Shown here in pieces: positions 142 to 9,726 of a stretch of DNA of 38,326 nt. Made by a program: the position numbers and the translations under genes. The first letter of the stretch is position 1; the number at the start of each line of letters is the position of its first letter. The notes under the pieces were generated by a model. That model had not been told where the DNA came from and did no database searches. It saw only the letters and a list, made by a program, of their open reading frames with translations. The DNA is taken from positions 1 to 38,326 of the forward strand of contig JAISUO010000110.1 in assembly GCA_031272035.1 (NCBI GenBank). The letters run 5' to 3'. This DNA comes from Synergistaceae bacterium (GTDB taxonomy: Bacteria > Synergistota > Synergistia > Synergistales > Aminobacteriaceae).

Positions 142-1689
142 ATGAAGATGATAACGAAGATAATGAAGATGAAGAAATTTTTTTGCGTGTTTGCCCTGTT
201 TTTGGCGATGGCCGCGCTGATGCCGGCTGCAGCCGCCGACGCCGCGGCCTCGAAAATCGTTTTCGCCCGCCCCAGCGACTCCGACAACCTCGATCCGGTC
301 ACTCAGTCTCACAACGAGAACATCTGGATACTCAACCTGATGATGGACGGGCTGGTGAAGAGCAGCAACGAGGGAACCTCCATTGAGCCCAACCTTGCGA
401 AGAGCTGGGACGTGAGCGGCGACGGACTGGAGTACACGTTCCACCTTGTGGAGGGCGTCAAATTCTCGGACGGAACTCCCGTCACGACGGCGGACTGGGT
501 CTGGTCCCTGCTCCGCGCCAGAGACGAGCCCACGAGCATCTGGGGAGGCAACCTGAAAATCATCTCCGACGTAAGCGCCCCCGACGACAAAACCATCCTG
601 GTGAAACTGAAGCAGCCGGACGCGGCAATTCTGGCGTCGCTGGCCATGTTCAACGCCTCCGTCCTGCCGAAGGCCTATTTCGAAAAAGTGACGCTGGAGG
701 GTTTTACTCAGAAACCCATAGGAACGGGCCCCTTTATGCTGAAGGACTGGGTGAAGGGCGAGCATCTCACACTGGCGAAAAATCCCCACTACAGAGTGCA
801 GGGCATTCCCCAGACGGACGAAATCGTGTTCAACGTGGTTCCGGACAACAACACCCGCACCCTTCAGCTTGAAGCGGGAGACATCGACGGCGACCTCAAC
901 GCGCTTTACAACAAGATGGCCGAGCTGAAGGACAATTCCGCCTATGTGACGGCCAATTTCCCGGGGACGCTGGTGCGTTTCCTCGCCTTCAACACGGCGC
1001 GAAAGCCCTTCGACGACGTGAGGGTCCGGAAGGCCATCGCCTGCGCCATCGACAGAAAAGCCATTCTGCAGGTGGCCCTCAACGGATACGGCGAGCTGGG
1101 GACGGCTTTTATGCATAAATCCCTCATGTACCACAACCCGGATCTGCCCCTCGAACCCCTGGACGTGGAAAAATCGAAAAAACTGCTGGCCGAGGCCGGA
1201 GTCAAGGGGGTCACGGTGGAGTTTCTCGTTCGGGCCGGCGACAACATCGCATCTCAGGTGGGCACCATCATCCAGGCGAACCTGGCCAAAGTGGGCATCA
1301 CCGTGAAAATCGTTCAGATGGAGGCCGCGTCGGTCAGCTCCCTGCAGAGGTCTTTCCAGTTCGACATGATCTATTCGGGCTGGACCAGCGACATGGTGGA
1401 CCCGGCGCAGGCGATGGAGCGCTTCATCAACTACAACGACACCACGAGATGCTACTACACGGGCTGGAAAAACGACGAGGCCATCAAGCTCGTGGCGGAC
1501 GCCCTGAAAGAGCTCAACCCCGACAAACGACGGGAGATCTATTATAAAGTGCAGAAAATTTACGCCGACGAGTGCCCGGCCGTTTCCCTGTTCTACGGCG
1601 GATACCCGGTGATTTTGCGGGCGGGAATCAGCGGCTTCGTCCAGACGCCCCTGGGCAACTACCGCTTCGAAAACCTCGTAAAAAAGTAA
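142..1689 (+). CDS. Dipeptide/oligopeptide ABC transporter substrate-binding protein (SBP family 5)
   Basis: Periplasmic peptide-binding protein that captures short peptides and delivers them to the membrane permease pair encoded just downstream. From the ATG at 142 it is 515 residues, a normal length for the DppA/OppA/NikA family. The N-terminus is a signal peptide: a Lys-rich start, a hydrophobic FFCVFALFLAMAAL core and an Ala-rich cleavage region. No lipobox cysteine is seen, so it is probably soluble in the periplasm. The early FARPSDSDNLDP and the later EPNLAKSWDVSGDGLEYTF stretches are family hallmarks. The reading frame is open back to TTG 121, but AAGGAGG at 124-130 sits 11 bases before ATG 142, and a TTG at 136 is too close. 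Peptide substrates are inferred from the neighbours; nickel or other ligands cannot be excluded. Confidence 0.93.
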   Translation: MKMITKIMKMKKFFCVFALFLAMAALMPAAAADAAASKIVFARPSDSDNLDPVTQSHNENIWILNLMMDGLVKSSNEGTSIEPNLAKSWDVSGDGLEYTFHLVEGVKFSDGTPVTTADWVWSLLRARDEPTSIWGGNLKIISDVSAPDDKTILVKLKQPDAAILASLAMFNASVLPKAYFEKVTLEGFTQKPIGTGPFMLKDWVKGEHLTLAKNPHYRVQGIPQTDEIVFNVVPDNNTRTLQLEAGDIDGDLNALYNKMAELKDNSAYVTANFPGTLVRFLAFNTARKPFDDVRVRKAIACAIDRKAILQVALNGYGELGTAFMHKSLMYHNPDLPLEPLDVEKSKKLLAEAGVKGVTVEFLVRAGDNIASQVGTIIQANLAKVGITVKIVQMEAASVSSLQRSFQFDMIYSGWTSDMVDPAQAMERFINYNDTTRCYYTGWKNDEAIKLVADALKELNPDKRREIYYKVQKIYADECPAVSLFYGGYPVILRAGISGFVQTPLGNYRFENLVKK

Positions 1690-1737: not shown

Positions 1738-2679
1738 GTGCATCGGCTAAACTACATTTTCAGGCGGGTGTTGCAGATTATCCCTGTCCTGCTGCTGGTG
1801 ACGGTACTGATCTTTTTGCTCATGCGCCTGATTCCGGGGGATCCCGTCGAGGTGATGCTCGGTGAAAAATACACCCACGAAAAAGCCGAGGTCATTCGGG
1901 AAAACCTGGGGCTGAACAAACCTTTATATGTGCAGTATATGATCTTTCTGCGCAATCTGTGCCGGCTGGATTTCGGCAACTCCATCGTGTACATCGTTCC
2001 TGTGAGCCAGCTCCTGACGAGACGAATCGGGATAACGCTTTTGCTGACGCTGATGACGGCGTTTTTCGTCCTGATCATCAGTTTTCCCCTGGGATTCATC
2101 GCCGCCGTCAACAGAAACCGGCCCGGCGACCAGATCATACGAATCGGCGCCCTGGTCTCCCTCGCCCTGCCTCAGTTCTGGATCGGGCTGCTGCTGCTGC
2201 TGTTCTTCGGCCTCAAACTGCGGTGGCTGCCCGTGGCCGGCTGGGGAACGACCTGGCTGGAACACCTTCAGTCCCTCATCCTGCCGGCCTTCACCCAGTC
2301 TCTGGCCACCAGCTCTCTCATCGTCCGCAACCTCAGAAACGCCATTATCGACGTGCTGAACAGCGACTACGTTGATTTCGCCAGAAGCAAGGGGCTGAAG
2401 CCCAAAGTGGTGCGGTCGCGGTACGTGCTGAGAAACGCGCTGATCTCCACCGTGACCCTGTTCTCCATGCGAATAACCTACATGCTGAGCGGGTCGGTGG
2501 TCATTGAGACGGTTTTTGCGCTTCCGGGGATCGGCTCCCTGCTGGTCTCCTCCATTCTCAGCCGCGATTACGCCGTGGTTCAGGCCACCGTTTTCGTTTT
2601 TGCCGCGCTGGTCCTCATCGCCAACCTGGCGACGGACGTCTTTTATTCCGTGCTCGATCCGAGAGTGCGCCTGGAATGA
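1738..2679 (+). CDS. Peptide ABC transporter permease, DppB/OppB type
   Basis: First inner-membrane subunit of the peptide importer, 313 residues as expected for the family. Hydrophobic helices are visible near residues 11-29, 99-123, 136-159, 238-258 and 282-304. The cytoplasmic coupling loop that docks onto the ATPase is seen around 210-235 (DYVDFARSKGL...), followed by the LPGIGSLL motif near 262. The start is GTG 1738, preceded by AGGCAGGTG at 1722-1730. It lies 48 bases after the binding-protein gene and shares the ATGA overlap at 2676-2679 with one possible start of the next permease. Confidence 0.95.
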   Translation: MHRLNYIFRRVLQIIPVLLLVTVLIFLLMRLIPGDPVEVMLGEKYTHEKAEVIRENLGLNKPLYVQYMIFLRNLCRLDFGNSIVYIVPVSQLLTRRIGITLLLTLMTAFFVLIISFPLGFIAAVNRNRPGDQIIRIGALVSLALPQFWIGLLLLLFFGLKLRWLPVAGWGTTWLEHLQSLILPAFTQSLATSSLIVRNLRNAIIDVLNSDYVDFARSKGLKPKVVRSRYVLRNALISTVTLFSMRITYMLSGSVVIETVFALPGIGSLLVSSILSRDYAVVQATVFVFAALVLIANLATDVFYSVLDPRVRLE

Positions 2680-2705
2680 CCCGCGGCGAAAAGCGAGGTG
2701 ACGAC

Positions 2706-3572
2706 ATGACCGGTCAGACAGCGGCGTCGGAAAGTAAGTCGGAAAGTAAAAAGAAAATCCCCCTGTACAGGAGAAGCGTGACGCTCAACGTGGGGGGCGC
2801 GATTTTGCTTGTCGTTCTGTTCTTCGCGTTTTTTCCGGAGCATATCGCTCCCTTCGACCCCGTGGAAATGGATTTGACAGCGATCAAGCAGGGCCCGTCG
2901 CGGATGCATTTTTTCGGCACCGATAATTTTGGGCGGGACCTTTTCTCCCGCGTGGTCTGGGGTACCCGGGTGGATCTGATGGTGGGAGTGCTGGCGACCC
3001 TGGTTCCCCTGCTGGTGGGAGGGCTGATCGGGCTTCTGGCGGGATACTGCGGAGGCTGGGTGGACGTCGTTCTCATGCGGACTCTCGACATTTTCATGGC
3101 CTTCCCCTATCTCACCCTGGTGGTGGCCATTGTGGCCGTGCTGGGCCCGGGGATCGACAATCTATACCTGGCCATATGGCTGGTGGGCTGGAAGGAGTAC
3201 GCCCGGCTGGTCCGCGGCGAAGTCATGGTGGTGAAGAACGCCGAATACGTGGAAATGGCCAGAGCCCTGGGTTTTTCACATGCGAGAATCCTTTTCAGGC
3301 ACGTGCTTCCCAACGTATTCAGCTCGTCGCTGGTCTACGGCGCCTCCGACGTGGTGATGTGCATGCTCGCCGGGGCGTCGCTGGGGTTTCTCGGCCTTGG
3401 CGTCCAGCCCCCCACCGCCGAGTGGGGGGTCATCATCGCGGACGGCAGGCAGTTCATCAACGAGGCGCCCTGGCTCTGCTTTTTCCCCGGCATGGCCCTG
3501 GTCTTCGCCGGAACCGGCTTCAGCCTTCTGGGCGACGGACTGTCGGACCTGCTCAGGACCAAAGGGCGATAA
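2706..3572 (+). CDS. Peptide ABC transporter permease, DppC/OppC type
   Basis: Second permease subunit, 288 residues from ATG 2706. A short cytoplasmic N-terminus and a first helix are followed by the family hallmark HFFGTDNFGRDLFSRV, which precedes the main transmembrane domain. A coupling loop with EMARALGFSHARI lies near the centre, and the C-terminal part has GASLGFLGLGVQPP. An in-frame ATG at 2676 overlaps the dppB stop (ATGA), but GAGGTG at 2695-2700 is correctly spaced for ATG 2706. The extra ten residues of the longer version are polar. The partner permease is encoded immediately upstream and both ATPases downstream. Confidence 0.94.
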   Translation: MTGQTAASESKSESKKKIPLYRRSVTLNVGGAILLVVLFFAFFPEHIAPFDPVEMDLTAIKQGPSRMHFFGTDNFGRDLFSRVVWGTRVDLMVGVLATLVPLLVGGLIGLLAGYCGGWVDVVLMRTLDIFMAFPYLTLVVAIVAVLGPGIDNLYLAIWLVGWKEYARLVRGEVMVVKNAEYVEMARALGFSHARILFRHVLPNVFSSSLVYGASDVVMCMLAGASLGFLGLGVQPPTAEWGVIIADGRQFINEAPWLCFFPGMALVFAGTGFSLLGDGLSDLLRTKGR

Positions 3573-3588
3573 TACGGAAAAAAATAAT

Positions 3589-4587
3589 ATGGCAAAAAAT
3601 AAAGTTTTGGAAATTACGGATCTGGTCACCCGTTTTTTCACGAAAGAGGGCACGGTTCACGCCGTCAACGGGGTGAGTTTTTCGATTTACGAAGGTGAGA
3701 TTTTCGGCCTCGTGGGCGAGAGCGGCTGCGGAAAAAGCGTCACCTGCAAGTCCATCATCAACCTGCTGCACCCGCCGGGGCAGATCGTCTCCGGAAGCAT
3801 AAAATACGCGGGTCAGGAACTGGTGGGCGTCGACGAAAACGCCCTGAGCGACATTCGGGGCAGGGAGATCGGCATGATCTTTCAGGAGCCTCTGACGGCG
3901 CTCAATCCGGTGCTGACAATTCGGGAGCAGATTTTTGACGCCCTCGAAAAAAAGGGAATGACGTCCGGAGAAAAATACGCGAGAGCCGCCGAGCTCCTGA
4001 CTCTGGCCGGCATTCCCGCTCCAGTGGAGAGAATGGAGGAGTATCCCCACCAGTTCAGCGGCGGAATGAGGCAAAGGGTCATGATCGCCATCGCTCTGGC
4101 CTCCGAGCCGAAAATTCTTCTGGCGGACGAGCCAACCACCGCGCTGGACGTGACCATACAGGATCAGATTCTCAAACTGATCGATCAGCTTCGGGAGGAA
4201 CTGGGGATGGCGGTTCTGTTCGTCACCCACGATTTGGGCGTGGTGGCGCAGCTTTGCGACAGGGTGGCCGTGATGTACGCGGGTTACATCATGGAGCTCA
4301 CCGCGACTCTGACCCTTTTTGCGGCGCCGCGTCATCCCTACACTCACGCTTTGCTGCAATCGCTCCCCTCGGACATCCCCAGGGGACATCCGCTGGAATC
4401 CATCGGCGGACAGCCCCCCGACCTCTTCGAGCTGCCCCCGGGCTGTCCTTTTTCACCCCGCTGCAGAATGGCGGAGGGCCGCTGTTTTGAAAGTCTGCCC
4501 CCCCTGACGGAGCTTCTTCCGGGGCATTTCGTCCGCTGTCACCGCTCAGGGGAGACGGAAAACTTCCGCGGAATCATCGATTTATAA
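3589..4587 (+). CDS. Peptide ABC transporter ATP-binding protein, DppD/OppD type
   Basis: Cytoplasmic ATPase of the peptide importer, 332 residues. It has Walker A GESGCGKS (43-50), a Q-loop in IFQEPLTALNP, the signature FSGGMRQRV, Walker B ILLADEPTTALD and the switch histidine in VTHDLGVV. The C-terminal oligopeptide-transporter domain carries four cysteines (CPFSPRC, then RC and RC), a conserved cluster that in this family may hold an iron-sulfur centre; that last point is inference. ATG 3589 was chosen because the protein then begins MAKNKVLEI, typical of the family. Upstream is only a weak A-rich ribosome site. The upstream extension to 3397 lies inside dppC and is not coding. Confidence 0.95.
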   Translation: MAKNKVLEITDLVTRFFTKEGTVHAVNGVSFSIYEGEIFGLVGESGCGKSVTCKSIINLLHPPGQIVSGSIKYAGQELVGVDENALSDIRGREIGMIFQEPLTALNPVLTIREQIFDALEKKGMTSGEKYARAAELLTLAGIPAPVERMEEYPHQFSGGMRQRVMIAIALASEPKILLADEPTTALDVTIQDQILKLIDQLREELGMAVLFVTHDLGVVAQLCDRVAVMYAGYIMELTATLTLFAAPRHPYTHALLQSLPSDIPRGHPLESIGGQPPDLFELPPGCPFSPRCRMAEGRCFESLPPLTELLPGHFVRCHRSGETENFRGIIDL

Positions 4588-4613
4588 TTTATATAATTTT
4601 TCGAAGGTGCGCC

Positions 4614-5633
4614 ATGAACGACAGAACAGAGACATCAGAACAGGGAACCGCGAGCCTCCCTCTGATAGAAGTGCGGGAGCTGACCAGGTACTTTCCCCTG
4701 AAGCAATCCCTGCTGGATTTCGCCGCGCGCAGACCCGTAAAATATTTGAGGGCCGTGGACAACGTCAGCTTCGGTATCGACCAGGGCGAGACCATGGGGC
4801 TTGTGGGTGAAAGCGGCTGCGGAAAAAGCACGCTGGCCCGCACGATCATACGCCTGTACGACCCTCAGAAGGGCAAAATCCTGTTTCGGGGCAGGGACAT
4901 CACCGGCCTGCAGGGGGCCGAACTTCGGGCGATGCGCAGGGAATTTCAGATCGTGTTTCAGGACCCCTATTCCTCCCTGAACCCCAGAATGTCCGTATAC
5001 GACATGCTTTCCGAGATTTTGCGCGTTCATAAAATCTGCTCCCCCAAAGAGATTCCCGCCAGAGTGCTGGAGCTTCTGGAAAGAGTGGGGCTGAACGCCC
5101 AGTGCATGAACCGTTTCGCCAGCGAATTTTCCGGAGGGCAGCGGCAGAGAATCGGAATCGCCCGGGCGCTGGCCCTGAGCCCCGAATTCATCATCGCGGA
5201 CGAACCCGTTTCCGCTTTGGACGTCTCCATTCAGGCTCAGATCATAAACCTGCTGAACGACCTGCAAAAACAGCTGGGCCTCACCATGCTGTTCATTTCT
5301 CACGATTTGCGGGTGGTGCGCTGCATCACCCATCGCGTCGCGGTGATGTATCTGGGGAAAATTGTGGAAACGGGCGACACGGATCAGGTCTTCACTCATC
5401 CCCGTCACCCCTATTCGCGCGTTCTGACGAGGTCGGCGCCCATGCTGGACCCGAGAAAAAAAACCCGCGGCTGCGCCATCGGAGGCGAACTGCCGAACCC
5501 GATAAACGTCCCGCCGGGCTGCCGCTTTCACCCCCGCTGCGAATTTGCCCGGGAAAAATGCAGAACGGAGGAACCCCCTTTTCTGGAGATTTCCACCGGA
5601 AGGCGGGTATCCTGCCATTATCCGCTGAACTGA
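4614..5633 (+). CDS. Peptide ABC transporter ATP-binding protein, DppF/OppF type
   Basis: Second ATPase of the importer, 339 residues. Walker A GESGCGKS is at 65-72, and the signature EFSGGQRQRIGIARAL, Walker B FIIADEPVSALD and switch region FISHDLRVV follow in order. The insertion of about 20 residues before Walker A (FPLKQSLLDF...) is typical of the F subunit, which starts MPLLEVRDLKKYFP-like in relatives. The tail again has four cysteines (CRFHPRC, KC, SC). A GAAGGTG ribosome site lies at 4603-4609 before ATG 4614. With the D-type ATPase it should form the nucleotide-binding heterodimer. Confidence 0.95.
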   Translation: MNDRTETSEQGTASLPLIEVRELTRYFPLKQSLLDFAARRPVKYLRAVDNVSFGIDQGETMGLVGESGCGKSTLARTIIRLYDPQKGKILFRGRDITGLQGAELRAMRREFQIVFQDPYSSLNPRMSVYDMLSEILRVHKICSPKEIPARVLELLERVGLNAQCMNRFASEFSGGQRQRIGIARALALSPEFIIADEPVSALDVSIQAQIINLLNDLQKQLGLTMLFISHDLRVVRCITHRVAVMYLGKIVETGDTDQVFTHPRHPYSRVLTRSAPMLDPRKKTRGCAIGGELPNPINVPPGCRFHPRCEFAREKCRTEEPPFLEISTGRRVSCHYPLN

Positions 5634-5677
5634 AACTTGATTTTCAAAAAATTTATTCTGCAAGGAGACAGAAAGAA

Positions 5678-6436
5678 ATGGAGAAAGTTCGTGTCGAGGA
5701 AATGACATCCGCCGAGTTCAGAGACGTTCTGAACGTCTGCGACATGATTCTCATTCCAATCGGCAGCATCGAGGAACACGGAACGCACGGCAAATTTTTG
5801 TTCGATACGGTCATCGCCCACGAATGCGCTTACAGACTGGGATGCCTGACTCACACCCCCGTCGCGCCCACAATACCCATCGGCCAGTGCCGGAACCTCA
5901 TGGGCTTTCCGGGAGGCGCGTCTCTGGATACCGAGCTGGTCGCCGACCTGCTGCTGGAGGTCGCCGAAGGATACGTGTCGGACGGAGTGCGGAGGATACT
6001 CTTTGTGAACAGCCACGGCGGCAACGGTTTTGCCGTAAAAATGGCCTGCGGGGAGCTATGGGAGCGATACGGCGTCCTCGCAACCCAGGCGGAATGGTAC
6101 GACGTCATAGCGGAGCACTCCCGCTACACCCGCAACGATCACGGCGGAGAATACGGAACCTCCGTGGTCATGGCCCTCGATGAAAGCCAGGTGGACCTCT
6201 CCCAGGCCAAAACCGTCCCGCTCAAAAATCCGTCCGAAAACCTGCTTCGGGGAGATTACCTGACCTACAGAGGCGTGAACGTTTCTCTGCCGCTGCCCAT
6301 GGACTACTACACCCCCGCGGGAGATCTGGGGCCGGAAGCGGCAAACGCCACCGTCCGGCAGGGCAGGGAAATGGTGGATATTTACATTGAAAACACCGTG
6401 AAAATTATAGAAGAAATGAAAAAGATTCTCCTTTAG
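5678..6436 (+). CDS. Creatininase-family metallohydrolase with intact metal-site motifs
   Basis: 252 residues, normal for the creatininase (creatinine amidohydrolase) family, which includes creatinine hydrolases, the mycofactocin peptidase MftE and a formamidopyrimidine deformylase. Visible family motifs are PIGSIEEHGTHGKFLFDT (27-44) with metal-ligand candidates E32, H34 and D43, then FVNSHGGN (109-116) and HGGEYGTS (155-162). These positions correspond to the binuclear metal centre in characterised members. ATG 5678 follows AAGGAG at 5662-5667. It lies 44 bases after the dppF-type gene and 15 bases before a degenerate paralogue, so it belongs to the peptide-uptake operon. The substrate is unknown. 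A role in amide or peptide bond cleavage fits the context, but creatinine itself is not indicated. Confidence 0.9.
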   Translation: MEKVRVEEMTSAEFRDVLNVCDMILIPIGSIEEHGTHGKFLFDTVIAHECAYRLGCLTHTPVAPTIPIGQCRNLMGFPGGASLDTELVADLLLEVAEGYVSDGVRRILFVNSHGGNGFAVKMACGELWERYGVLATQAEWYDVIAEHSRYTRNDHGGEYGTSVVMALDESQVDLSQAKTVPLKNPSENLLRGDYLTYRGVNVSLPLPMDYYTPAGDLGPEAANATVRQGREMVDIYIENTVKIIEEMKKILL

Positions 6437-6451
6437 GAGGGGACGACGACG

Positions 6452-7225
6452 ATGAAAGACAAACCCGCAAACGAGGTCCTCATAGAGCGTCTGAGCTGGG
6501 AAGAATACAAAAGCGCCATCGAAAAAACGAACACCGTCATCATCCCTGTGGGCGGAATGAAGGAACGGGGAACTCACGCGCCGCTGGGGGCGGCGAATAT
6601 CATCGCGAGAGAGATTTCGGTGAAGCTGGCGGAAAAATCCGGCGCGCTGGCAGCTCCGGTGATGACTTACGGATACAACCCCACAGGGAAAAATTTCCCC
6701 GGAGCCGTCTCGGTCAACGCCCCCCTTCTGAGGAAAATCATGCTCTCCTACGCCAAAAGTTACACCCGGCACAGGGCGGACAGAATCGTTTTTGTGAACG
6801 CTCAGAAGGAAAACGCGGATATTCTGGCCAACGTCTCCGTCGATTTGTTCGAAGAAACCAAAGCTATTTCTACAATAATAAACTGGTGGACGATTCTGCC
6901 GAAGGTGAACCCGACGTGGAAGGGATCGGACGACGCGGGTTACGCCGAAACCAGTCTGTTGCTGGCGATACGACCGGACCTCGTGGACCTGAGCCATATC
7001 ACGCCGGCCCGGCCCCTTCCCCTGAGCGAAAACATCAAATACGAAAATGGCTGGAAATGCGCGGGAACCTCTCTGTACTTTGCGGTGGACATGGCCCGTC
7101 ATAAAGGGATCGGCTCCACGGGCTCCTCTCCGGAAAAGGCCTCCGGAGAAGAGGGAAAGGCCATGCTGGAGGCGATCGCGGATTTTGGGGCGGGACTCAT
7201 CGCTGAAATAAGAAAAATCAAATAA
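6452..7225 (+). CDS. Degenerate creatininase-family paralogue, probably without metal catalysis
   Basis: 257 residues with the creatininase fold signature but altered active-site motifs. PVGGMKERGTHAPLGAAN (33-50) aligns with PIGSIEEHGTHGKFLFDT of the upstream gene, giving Glu32 to Lys37, His34 to Arg39 and Asp43 to Ala48. The HGGN motif is replaced by FVNAQKEN (114-121), and HGGE by DAGYAETS (161-168). The frame is open, full length and preceded by AGGAGGGG at 6436-6443, so it is an expressed gene rather than a pseudogene. It follows the intact paralogue by 15 bases. I infer a catalytically silent partner, regulator or ligand-binding protein, perhaps assembling with the intact subunit. A changed chemistry cannot be ruled out. 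Confidence 0.82.
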   Translation: MKDKPANEVLIERLSWEEYKSAIEKTNTVIIPVGGMKERGTHAPLGAANIIAREISVKLAEKSGALAAPVMTYGYNPTGKNFPGAVSVNAPLLRKIMLSYAKSYTRHRADRIVFVNAQKENADILANVSVDLFEETKAISTIINWWTILPKVNPTWKGSDDAGYAETSLLLAIRPDLVDLSHITPARPLPLSENIKYENGWKCAGTSLYFAVDMARHKGIGSTGSSPEKASGEEGKAMLEAIADFGAGLIAEIRKIK

Positions 7226-7274
7226 GAAAATCCAGTTATAAATTCATAACGACGATCCCTGGAGGCGAATATAA

Positions 7275-8576
7275 ATGTCTGAAGCAACAGCACTTGTCAA
7301 TGATCTTATCGATTTTATTTACGAAAGCCCCTCCCCGTTTCACGTTGTGGCAAACGCGAAGAAACGCCTGCTGGCCAATGGATTTTCCCAGCTGTGCCTG
7401 AAGGAAAAATGGAATCTGGAAAAAGGGGGAAAATATTTCACAGACCGTAACGGCAGCGCTCTGACGGCCTTTATCGTCGGCTCCGGCGAAGTCGAGGAGG
7501 AGGGTTACCGCGTCGTCGCCGCGCACACGGACTTCCCCTCGTTCCACGTCAAGCCCTCGCCGGAAATGACGGATAACCATTATCTGAAGCTGAACACCGA
7601 GGCCTTCGGCAGCGCCATCCTGAACACCTGGCTGGACAGGCCGCTGTCTCTGGCGGGCCGCGTGTCGCTGAGAAGCGACGACATCCTGCACCCCGAAGAA
7701 TTGCTGGTCAACATAAAAAAGCCGCTCCTCATCATCCCCAACCAGTCCATCCACATGAACAAAAAAGTGAACGAAGGCGTAGAACTGAACAAACAGAAAG
7801 ACCTGCTGCCCCTGCTGGGGATGACGGGGGAAGATTTCAGTAAGGAGGGCTATCTGTCGCGTCTTCTGGCCGGGGAGCTTTCCGTGAAGGCGGAGGATAT
7901 TCTCGACTTCGAGCTGTGGCTTTACGAGTTTGAGAAGGGCAGAATCATCGGGGTCAACGATGAGTTCGTGTGCAGCAGCCGGCTGGACAACCTCACCTCC
8001 GTGCACGCGGCGCTCAACGCCCTCGTGAATGCCCGCCCGGGACCGTTCACCAGCGTGGCGGTTTTCTTCGACGACGAGGAGGTCGGCAATCGCACCAAAC
8101 AGGGCGCGGACTCCCGAATGCTCTACAACACCCTCGAACGCGTCGCCCTGGCTCAGGGCAAGGGCCCCGAAGAATTTTTCCGGGCGGTCTACAGGTCCTT
8201 TATGCTCTCCTGCGACTGCTCCCACGCCGTACATCCCAACGCCCCCGAAAAGCACGACCCACTGGTAAAGCCCGTGATCAACGGAGGGCCCGTGATTAAA
8301 ATCAGCGCAAACAGGAATTTTACGACGGACAGCAACTCCAGCGCGGTTTATCAGATGATCTGCGAGAGGGCGGGAGTGCCCTTTCAGAAGTTCGTCAGCC
8401 GGTCGGACATGCCGGGCGGCAGCACCATCGGGCCGGCCTCCGTCACTCAGCTCGACCTCCAGTCCATCGACATCGGCTCCGCCCTGTTCGCCATGCATTC
8501 CATAAGAGAAACCGGCGGCGTGATGGACCATCACTATCTGGAAAAATCCTTCGAAGAATTCTATCGTCAGGGATAA
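7275..8576 (+). CDS. apeB: M18 family aminopeptidase (aspartyl aminopeptidase type)
   Basis: Cytosolic two-metal aminopeptidase that releases N-terminal residues, often acidic ones, from peptides. It is 433 residues, the usual M18 length. Metal and catalytic motifs are complete: AAHTDFPSF with H84 and D86, SRLDN with D238, FFDDEEVG with D266-E269, SDMPGGST with D378 and AMHS with H408. The CSHAVHPN block (316-322) is also characteristic. GGAGGCGA at 7261-7268 precedes ATG 7275. As the last gene of the peptide-transport operon it probably trims imported peptides. It converges with the TAXI gene, leaving only ten bases between the two stops. Confidence 0.95.
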   Translation: MSEATALVNDLIDFIYESPSPFHVVANAKKRLLANGFSQLCLKEKWNLEKGGKYFTDRNGSALTAFIVGSGEVEEEGYRVVAAHTDFPSFHVKPSPEMTDNHYLKLNTEAFGSAILNTWLDRPLSLAGRVSLRSDDILHPEELLVNIKKPLLIIPNQSIHMNKKVNEGVELNKQKDLLPLLGMTGEDFSKEGYLSRLLAGELSVKAEDILDFELWLYEFEKGRIIGVNDEFVCSSRLDNLTSVHAALNALVNARPGPFTSVAVFFDDEEVGNRTKQGADSRMLYNTLERVALAQGKGPEEFFRAVYRSFMLSCDCSHAVHPNAPEKHDPLVKPVINGGPVIKISANRNFTTDSNSSAVYQMICERAGVPFQKFVSRSDMPGGSTIGPASVTQLDLQSIDIGSALFAMHSIRETGGVMDHHYLEKSFEEFYRQG

Positions 8577-8586
8577 ATGAGGGATA

Positions 8587-9567
8587 CTATTCCAGCAGTC
8601 CCTTGTCTTTATAAAATTGAAGGGCTCCGTCGTGGAGGGGAATATTTGTGCCCAGAATGCCTCGCAGCGCGGTATCCAGTGAAATATTCTCCTTTGCCGC
8701 GGCGTGAGCGGCATGGATGGCCTCCATCCCCGCGGGAGAATAAATGTTTTCCAAAAGATCATAAACGACCTCGCCGGGCAATTCGACGTCCACCAGCATG
8801 ATGTTCATGACTGCCGTCGTGGTTGTGGCGCTCTTTGTCTCGTAGGTATCCGCGGGGATTTTTGCCTGGATGTAAAAAGGGTATTTTTCAATAAGTTTTT
8901 CCAATGGTTCTCCTTCTACGGGGATGAACACAATTTCTCTCGTCGCTCCAAGTTCTCTGATCATCGCATTTCCCAGCCCCGAGGTCACGAAAGCGACGTC
9001 GCAGTGGTTGTTCCTCATCTGGTTGATGGCTTCTCCGTAGTCGAGATAATCCACTGTACAGTCGTCATACGTCATTCCGTGGGCTTCAAAAATCATGCGG
9101 GCATTTATTTCCACGCCTGAGTTCGGGGCGCCAACGCCCACACGTCTGCCCTTCAGGTCGGTGAATTTTTTAATGCCCGTGTTTGCCATCGTCACGATTT
9201 GACAGTAGTTCGGCCACAAACCCATCATAGCCCTGAGGCTTTTTGCGGGGGGTTTGCCCTCATACGCGCCAAAAGCCTCTACGGCCTGGATCGCCGTATC
9301 CGCCATCACGATCGCCAATTCTCCCTGGTGCGTCAGAAGCGCCGTCAGATTCTCCACAGAAGCGCCTGTGGCCGCCACCGATGACCCGTAACCCAGGTTT
9401 TTGATGAAGGCGGCAAAGGCGCCCCCGATGGGAAAATACATTCCGCTGGACGGGCCTGTCAGCACCGTAATGAAATAATCCTCCCGCTTAACGGACGGCG
9501 CCGCGCAGACCTCTCTGATTCCAAATAAAATGACCGCTATGGCTGCCAACAGAGTTATTTTTTTCAT
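8587..9567 (-). CDS. TAXI family TRAP transporter solute-binding protein, no permease nearby
   Basis: Periplasmic binding protein of a TRAP-type importer for organic acids or amino acids, 326 residues from ATG 9567. A clear signal peptide (KKITLLAAIAVILFG, cleavage near VCAA) is followed by TAXI hallmarks: TGPSSGMYFPIGGAFA, NLTALLTHQGELAIVMADTA, FTDLKGRRVGVGAPNSGVE and CDVAFVTSG. GGAGAG lies 6-12 bases upstream of ATG 9567. The longer frame to 9639 adds 24 residues that are not signal-like. TRAP systems need DctQ/DctM or fused permeases, but neither flank encodes one, so this is an orphan whose permease would lie elsewhere. The ligand is not predictable. Confidence 0.92.
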   Translation of the reverse strand: MKKITLLAAIAVILFGIREVCAAPSVKREDYFITVLTGPSSGMYFPIGGAFAAFIKNLGYGSSVAATGASVENLTALLTHQGELAIVMADTAIQAVEAFGAYEGKPPAKSLRAMMGLWPNYCQIVTMANTGIKKFTDLKGRRVGVGAPNSGVEINARMIFEAHGMTYDDCTVDYLDYGEAINQMRNNHCDVAFVTSGLGNAMIRELGATREIVFIPVEGEPLEKLIEKYPFYIQAKIPADTYETKSATTTTAVMNIMLVDVELPGEVVYDLLENIYSPAGMEAIHAAHAAAKENISLDTALRGILGTNIPLHDGALQFYKDKGLLE

Positions 9568-9726
9568 TTTGCTCTCTCCAATCTCTCGGCTGCAAGCGTT
9601 TATTTTGTTCCATCTGCTGTTCACAAACTGCTGGCTCACAAAACCCCCGCAGGGCTTCCGGCCATTACAGGGACAATATAACTCCTGTCGACATTATACT
9701 CCATGGCTCGGCCCTCTGCTTCCCTA

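Follow-up and report, generated by a model that had tools for sequence, protein, structure and literature searches.

Two adjacent genes of the creatininase family, here called creat1 and creat2, lie at the end of a peptide-transporter operon in the window analysed (a stretch of 38,326 nucleotides), and the product of the second has lost the metal-site residues that the product of the first retains. The explanation that in our view accounts best for this pair, and which we hold to be moderately probable, is that enzyme and pseudoenzyme are translated together and assemble into a mixed oligomer. To our knowledge, few enzyme-pseudoenzyme pairs have been characterised among the bacterial metallohydrolases. 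In the openly licensed literature we found no report of a creatininase-family pseudoenzyme, nor of a creatininase linked with an oligopeptide ABC transporter.

The pair is part of a run of genes on one strand, in which the transporter genes (for a solute-binding protein, two permeases and two ATPases) are followed by creat1 and creat2 and then by the gene of an M18 aminopeptidase. The features are, in window coordinates:

142..1689, plus strand: peptide-type solute-binding protein (SBP_bac_5; Pfam PF00496, E 3e-101)
1738..2679, plus strand: DppB/OppB-type permease (Pfam BPD_transp_1 and BPD_transp_1_N)
2676..3572, plus strand: DppC/OppC-type permease (Pfam BPD_transp_1; OppC_N slightly below its cut-off)
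3589..4587, plus strand: DppD/OppD-type ATPase (Pfam ABC_tran and oligo_HPY)
4614..5633, plus strand: DppF/OppF-type ATPase (Pfam ABC_tran and oligo_HPY)
5678..6436, plus strand: creat1, creatininase-family protein of 252 residues with all metal-site residues, E32, H34, D43, H113 and H155 (PF02633, motif table)
6435..6440, plus strand: Shine-Dalgarno sequence AGGAGG of creat2 (read in the sequence)
6452..7225, plus strand: creat2, protein of 257 residues with a predicted creatininase fold and without the metal site, the positions reading K37, R39, A48, Q118 and D161 (PF02633, motif table, AlphaFold2 fold match)
7275..8576, plus strand: M18 aminopeptidase, 49 bases downstream of creat2 (Pfam PF02127, E 7.9e-126)

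An NMT1_3-type binding protein (PF16868) is encoded on the minus strand at 8587-9639, convergent to the operon. Within the run, the TAG stop codon of creat1 (6434-6436) overlaps the AGGAGG of creat2, which stands 11 bases before the creat2 ATG, and this overlap suggests that translation of the two genes is coupled. A scan for promoters and terminators yielded two matches of each kind, about the level seen in shuffled sequence; nothing in it seems to point to a break between creat1 and creat2, and both would probably be carried on one transcript.

Both proteins match PF02633 nearly from end to end, at 156.6 bits for creat1 and 136.9 bits for creat2 against a curated cut-off of 31.3 bits. The description given in the initial annotation, of adjacent full-length family members that differ at their metal motifs, is borne out by the two reading frames and by their alignment, in which E32, H34, D43, H113 and H155 of creat1 stand opposite K37, R39, A48, Q118 and D161 of creat2 (E-H-D-H-H against K-R-A-Q-D). 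The AlphaFold2 model of creat2, built on an alignment of four rows, has a pLDDT of 72 and a pTM of 0.76, with low confidence at residues 184-224. Compared with the PDB it matched creatininase structures at E about 1e-12, and all 26 matches at E <=0.001 were to members of this family; going by this model creat2 adopts the creatininase fold. The creatininase of Pseudomonas putida (PDB 1j2t, 3a6j) resembles creat2 in both fold and sequence (E 6e-18), and differs from it in that creat2 is without the metal site.

The replacements were next compared with the family as a whole. Our alignment comprised 80 members including creat1 and creat2; two are from Chloroflexota and the other 78 belong to the same order as the genome studied here, the sources being 183 genomes of the order and two Chloroflexota. 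No exception to E32, D43, H113 and H155 (creat1 numbering) occurs among the 79 members other than creat2, which is the only one of the 80 to be changed at all four positions (K37, A48, Q118 and D161). Thus creat1 carries the E, D, H and H expected of an active family member, and creat2 does not. Of the five positions that the initial annotation had used as markers these four hold, while H34 is not telling: in place of this ExH histidine 21 of the 79 carry W (16 members), Q (four) or Y (one), and it is thus unreliable as a marker of activity. Twelve additional members, taken from plasmid records and belonging to Fusobacteriota, Pseudomonadota, Thermomicrobiota, Bacillota or halophilic archaea, all keep the first four markers, and the fifth is in register in 11 of them, Halalkalicoccus appearing to be shifted in the alignment at that point. 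Sequencing error was rejected as the cause of the losses in creat2, because they fall in separate codons within an intact frame.

A protein without the metal pair could not perform the chemistry of the family, and creat2, which by its residues would be unable to hold that pair, is probably a pseudoenzyme. It does retain some features of the ancestral site. Within its QKEN motif a glutamate, E120, occupies the position of E122 in P. putida creatininase (HYEN), which is possibly one retained ligand position, and E166, the glutamate of the ETS motif, is also kept. K37 and R39 may stand in for the charge of the absent metals.

The view that creat2 is maintained rather than decaying gained support. 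The frame is open, and the codon usage is like that of the operon, with a codon-bias score of 0.17 for creat2 compared with 0.13 to 0.34 for its operon neighbours; synonymous codons drawn at random give -0.26. Sixteen further columns are conserved in 80% or more of the members; creat2 agrees with the family at 14 of these and creat1 at 12. Were the six losses of creat2 scattered randomly over the 20 columns, the chance that they included all four metal columns would be 120/38760, or about 0.003. A neutral simulation was run 20,000 times with point mutations from the closest intact relative until the four ligands had been lost; no stop codon arose in 0.33% of runs, 14 of 16 columns were kept in 0.6%, and both held in 0.055%, which are guide values given that the simulation has no indels and a single start sequence that is a relative and not the ancestor. 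Taken at the level of sequence, a loss confined to the metal site fits creat2 best, and decay does not. It is very unlikely, in our estimation, that creat2 has lost its function, has begun to decay and is on its way to being lost itself. Such a history would agree with the lack of an orthologue in anything searched and with a third-position G+C of 0.67, slightly under that of the neighbours, but the losses cluster at the four metal positions that are otherwise invariant, the ribosome site is intact along with the frame and the 14 columns, and the outcome was rare in the simulation.

The same evidence of retention, in codon bias, conserved columns and simulation, would also serve for a creat2 that acts by itself towards the imported compound, be it as ligand-binding protein, as sensor or as chaperone, and forms no complex with creat1, and its own long branch and low identity to creat1 add to this. 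We consider it a minor possibility, as the immediate adjacency of the genes and the overlap of stop codon and ribosome site favour joint use, and the characterised members of the family are oligomeric, P. putida creatininase being a homohexamer. Somewhat further from probability is the proposal that creat2 is still an enzyme, with a rebuilt site that is either metal-free or binds metal in another way and has K37, R39, Q118, E120, D160, D161 and E166 in the former pocket. Many of the replacement residues are charged and both E120 and E166 have been kept, as this proposal would lead one to expect; however, no member with an intermediate site was found among the relatives collected, and none of the characterised NCBIfam groups is matched at a score above its cut-off.

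The descent of the two genes was examined in a tree of the family. They share about 23% identity and are joined weakly in the tree (91/61), on long branches (1.81 and 1.94) that arise basally in a 26-member group containing the operon-linked genes. In leave-one-out trees the position of creat2 was stable, whereas creat1 drifted to a weakly supported place. A recent tandem duplication is unsupported given this identity and the weak joint branch. An old duplication is possible, and the same two observations mean that a single duplication of an oligomeric enzyme is not required as the origin of the pair. The first gene is also not typical of the family, for it deviates at K39, L41, Y141 and E169, all four of which positions are kept by creat2, and its own activity is consequently putative; four such positions are too few to establish complementarity with creat2. 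Of 49 clade columns, 13 differ in both proteins. We also considered a complementary pattern of loss between the two; there is no overlap among the 20 columns, but this would occur by chance with a probability of about 0.2 and is not significant.

Among the genomes searched, which covered the order and the phylum, no orthologue of either protein was found, and hence no orthologous creat1-creat2 pair; the phylum is represented by only 188 genomes in the collection. A pattern scan of genome contigs for creat2, which detects close relatives only, gave no orthologue, and the scan of viral contigs added no further family members. The initial annotation had named two observations that would speak against its reading, homologues of creat2 forming a different characterised group and creat2 occurring away from its partner; neither was found, which lends weak support given that no orthologue of either protein came to light. 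For the solute-binding protein there was no match at E 1e-120 in the order, and a search of 30 relatives at E 1e-60 gave none for the M18 aminopeptidase. The lack of close counterparts of these genes in the relatives searched suggests that the cassette of binding protein, creat1, creat2 and aminopeptidase was acquired, or that the lineage is poorly sampled.

More distant relatives were informative about the setting. The closest relatives of creat2, at about 30% identity, occur as tandem creatininase-family pairs in three genomes of the same order (G119, G120 and G122). Like creat1 and creat2 these genes are adjacent to one another and directly downstream of a peptide ABC operon, here of DppBCDF and binding protein; unlike them, both copies have kept their metal motifs. 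Another genome, G115, has the same transporter operon with one family copy. In the genome studied here this gene order occurs once more, in an operon on contig C84 (locus L061, G000:C84:14000-32000, 2763-9090) with a single terminal family gene whose metal residues are E-Q-D-H-H, and in Cetobacterium a peptide-type binding protein is followed by a family member. A family gene at the end of or beside a peptide ABC operon is therefore a recurrent feature, found in C84, G115, G119, G120, G122 and Cetobacterium, and tandem copies are not confined to this genome. The suggestion that the setting taken as a whole is non-standard was not supported, since both the linkage to the transporter and the tandem pairs recur in relatives; the unusual element is the metal-less second copy alone. 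The three tandem pairs also indicate that two side-by-side copies are kept in this type of operon.

If the preferred reading of a mixed oligomer is correct, creat1 would be a cytoplasmic metal-dependent hydrolase whose substrate, either a cyclic amide or a small peptide, is imported by the adjacent ABC transporter, and creat2 would have been retained as a structural or regulatory subunit, most likely within one oligomer with creat1. It could stabilise creat1, or shape or cap the entrance to its active site, in the way that MetCb acts on MetCa. In this metformin hydrolase, MetCa and MetCb are adjacent paralogues of the arginase/ureohydrolase family with 34% identity; MetCb has five of six metal ligands changed and is metal-free, MetCa is poorly soluble alone and active only on co-expression with MetCb, and in the alpha2-beta4 hexamer that the two form, MetCb lies as a cap over the active site (PMC11271267). 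The likeness to creat1 and creat2 lies in adjacent paralogues of which one keeps a two-metal site and the other is without most of the ligands while keeping the fold, and in a family that is otherwise homo-oligomeric. The two systems belong to different protein superfamilies, and pairs of the MetCaCb type occur in four phyla with the complex seen by structure, whereas creat1 and creat2 are known from the genes of one genome. It is conceivable, at rather less than an even chance, that the creatininase family has in creat1 and creat2 its first hetero-oligomeric enzyme, one with a metal-free paralogue obligatory for activity, arisen independently of MetCaCb. This would be a second enzyme-pseudoenzyme case on an unrelated fold, in which the dead subunit has been stripped of the metal site and of little besides, and would suggest that the silencing of one tandem copy is a repeatable route. 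In trypanosomes, AdoMetDC with its prozyme and the deoxyhypusine synthase pair likewise combine a dead paralogue with a live partner, which it activates through a hetero-oligomer (PMC5201418, PMC3663545); these are eukaryotic proteins of other families and are not set in a bacterial operon.

With regard to substrate, both proteins score far below the cut-offs of the NCBIfam equivalogs for creatininase, MftE and IolN (235, 172 and 245 bits, respectively). At 64.5 bits against the creatininase equivalog, creat1 gives no indication that creatinine is its substrate. Peptide cleavage has been described for MftE, which is homologous to creatininase (PMC10885120), and together with the context of transporter and aminopeptidase this makes a peptide-like substrate plausible for the operon. 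Annotators should be aware that a match to the creatininase family may, as in creat2, be entirely without the catalytic site.
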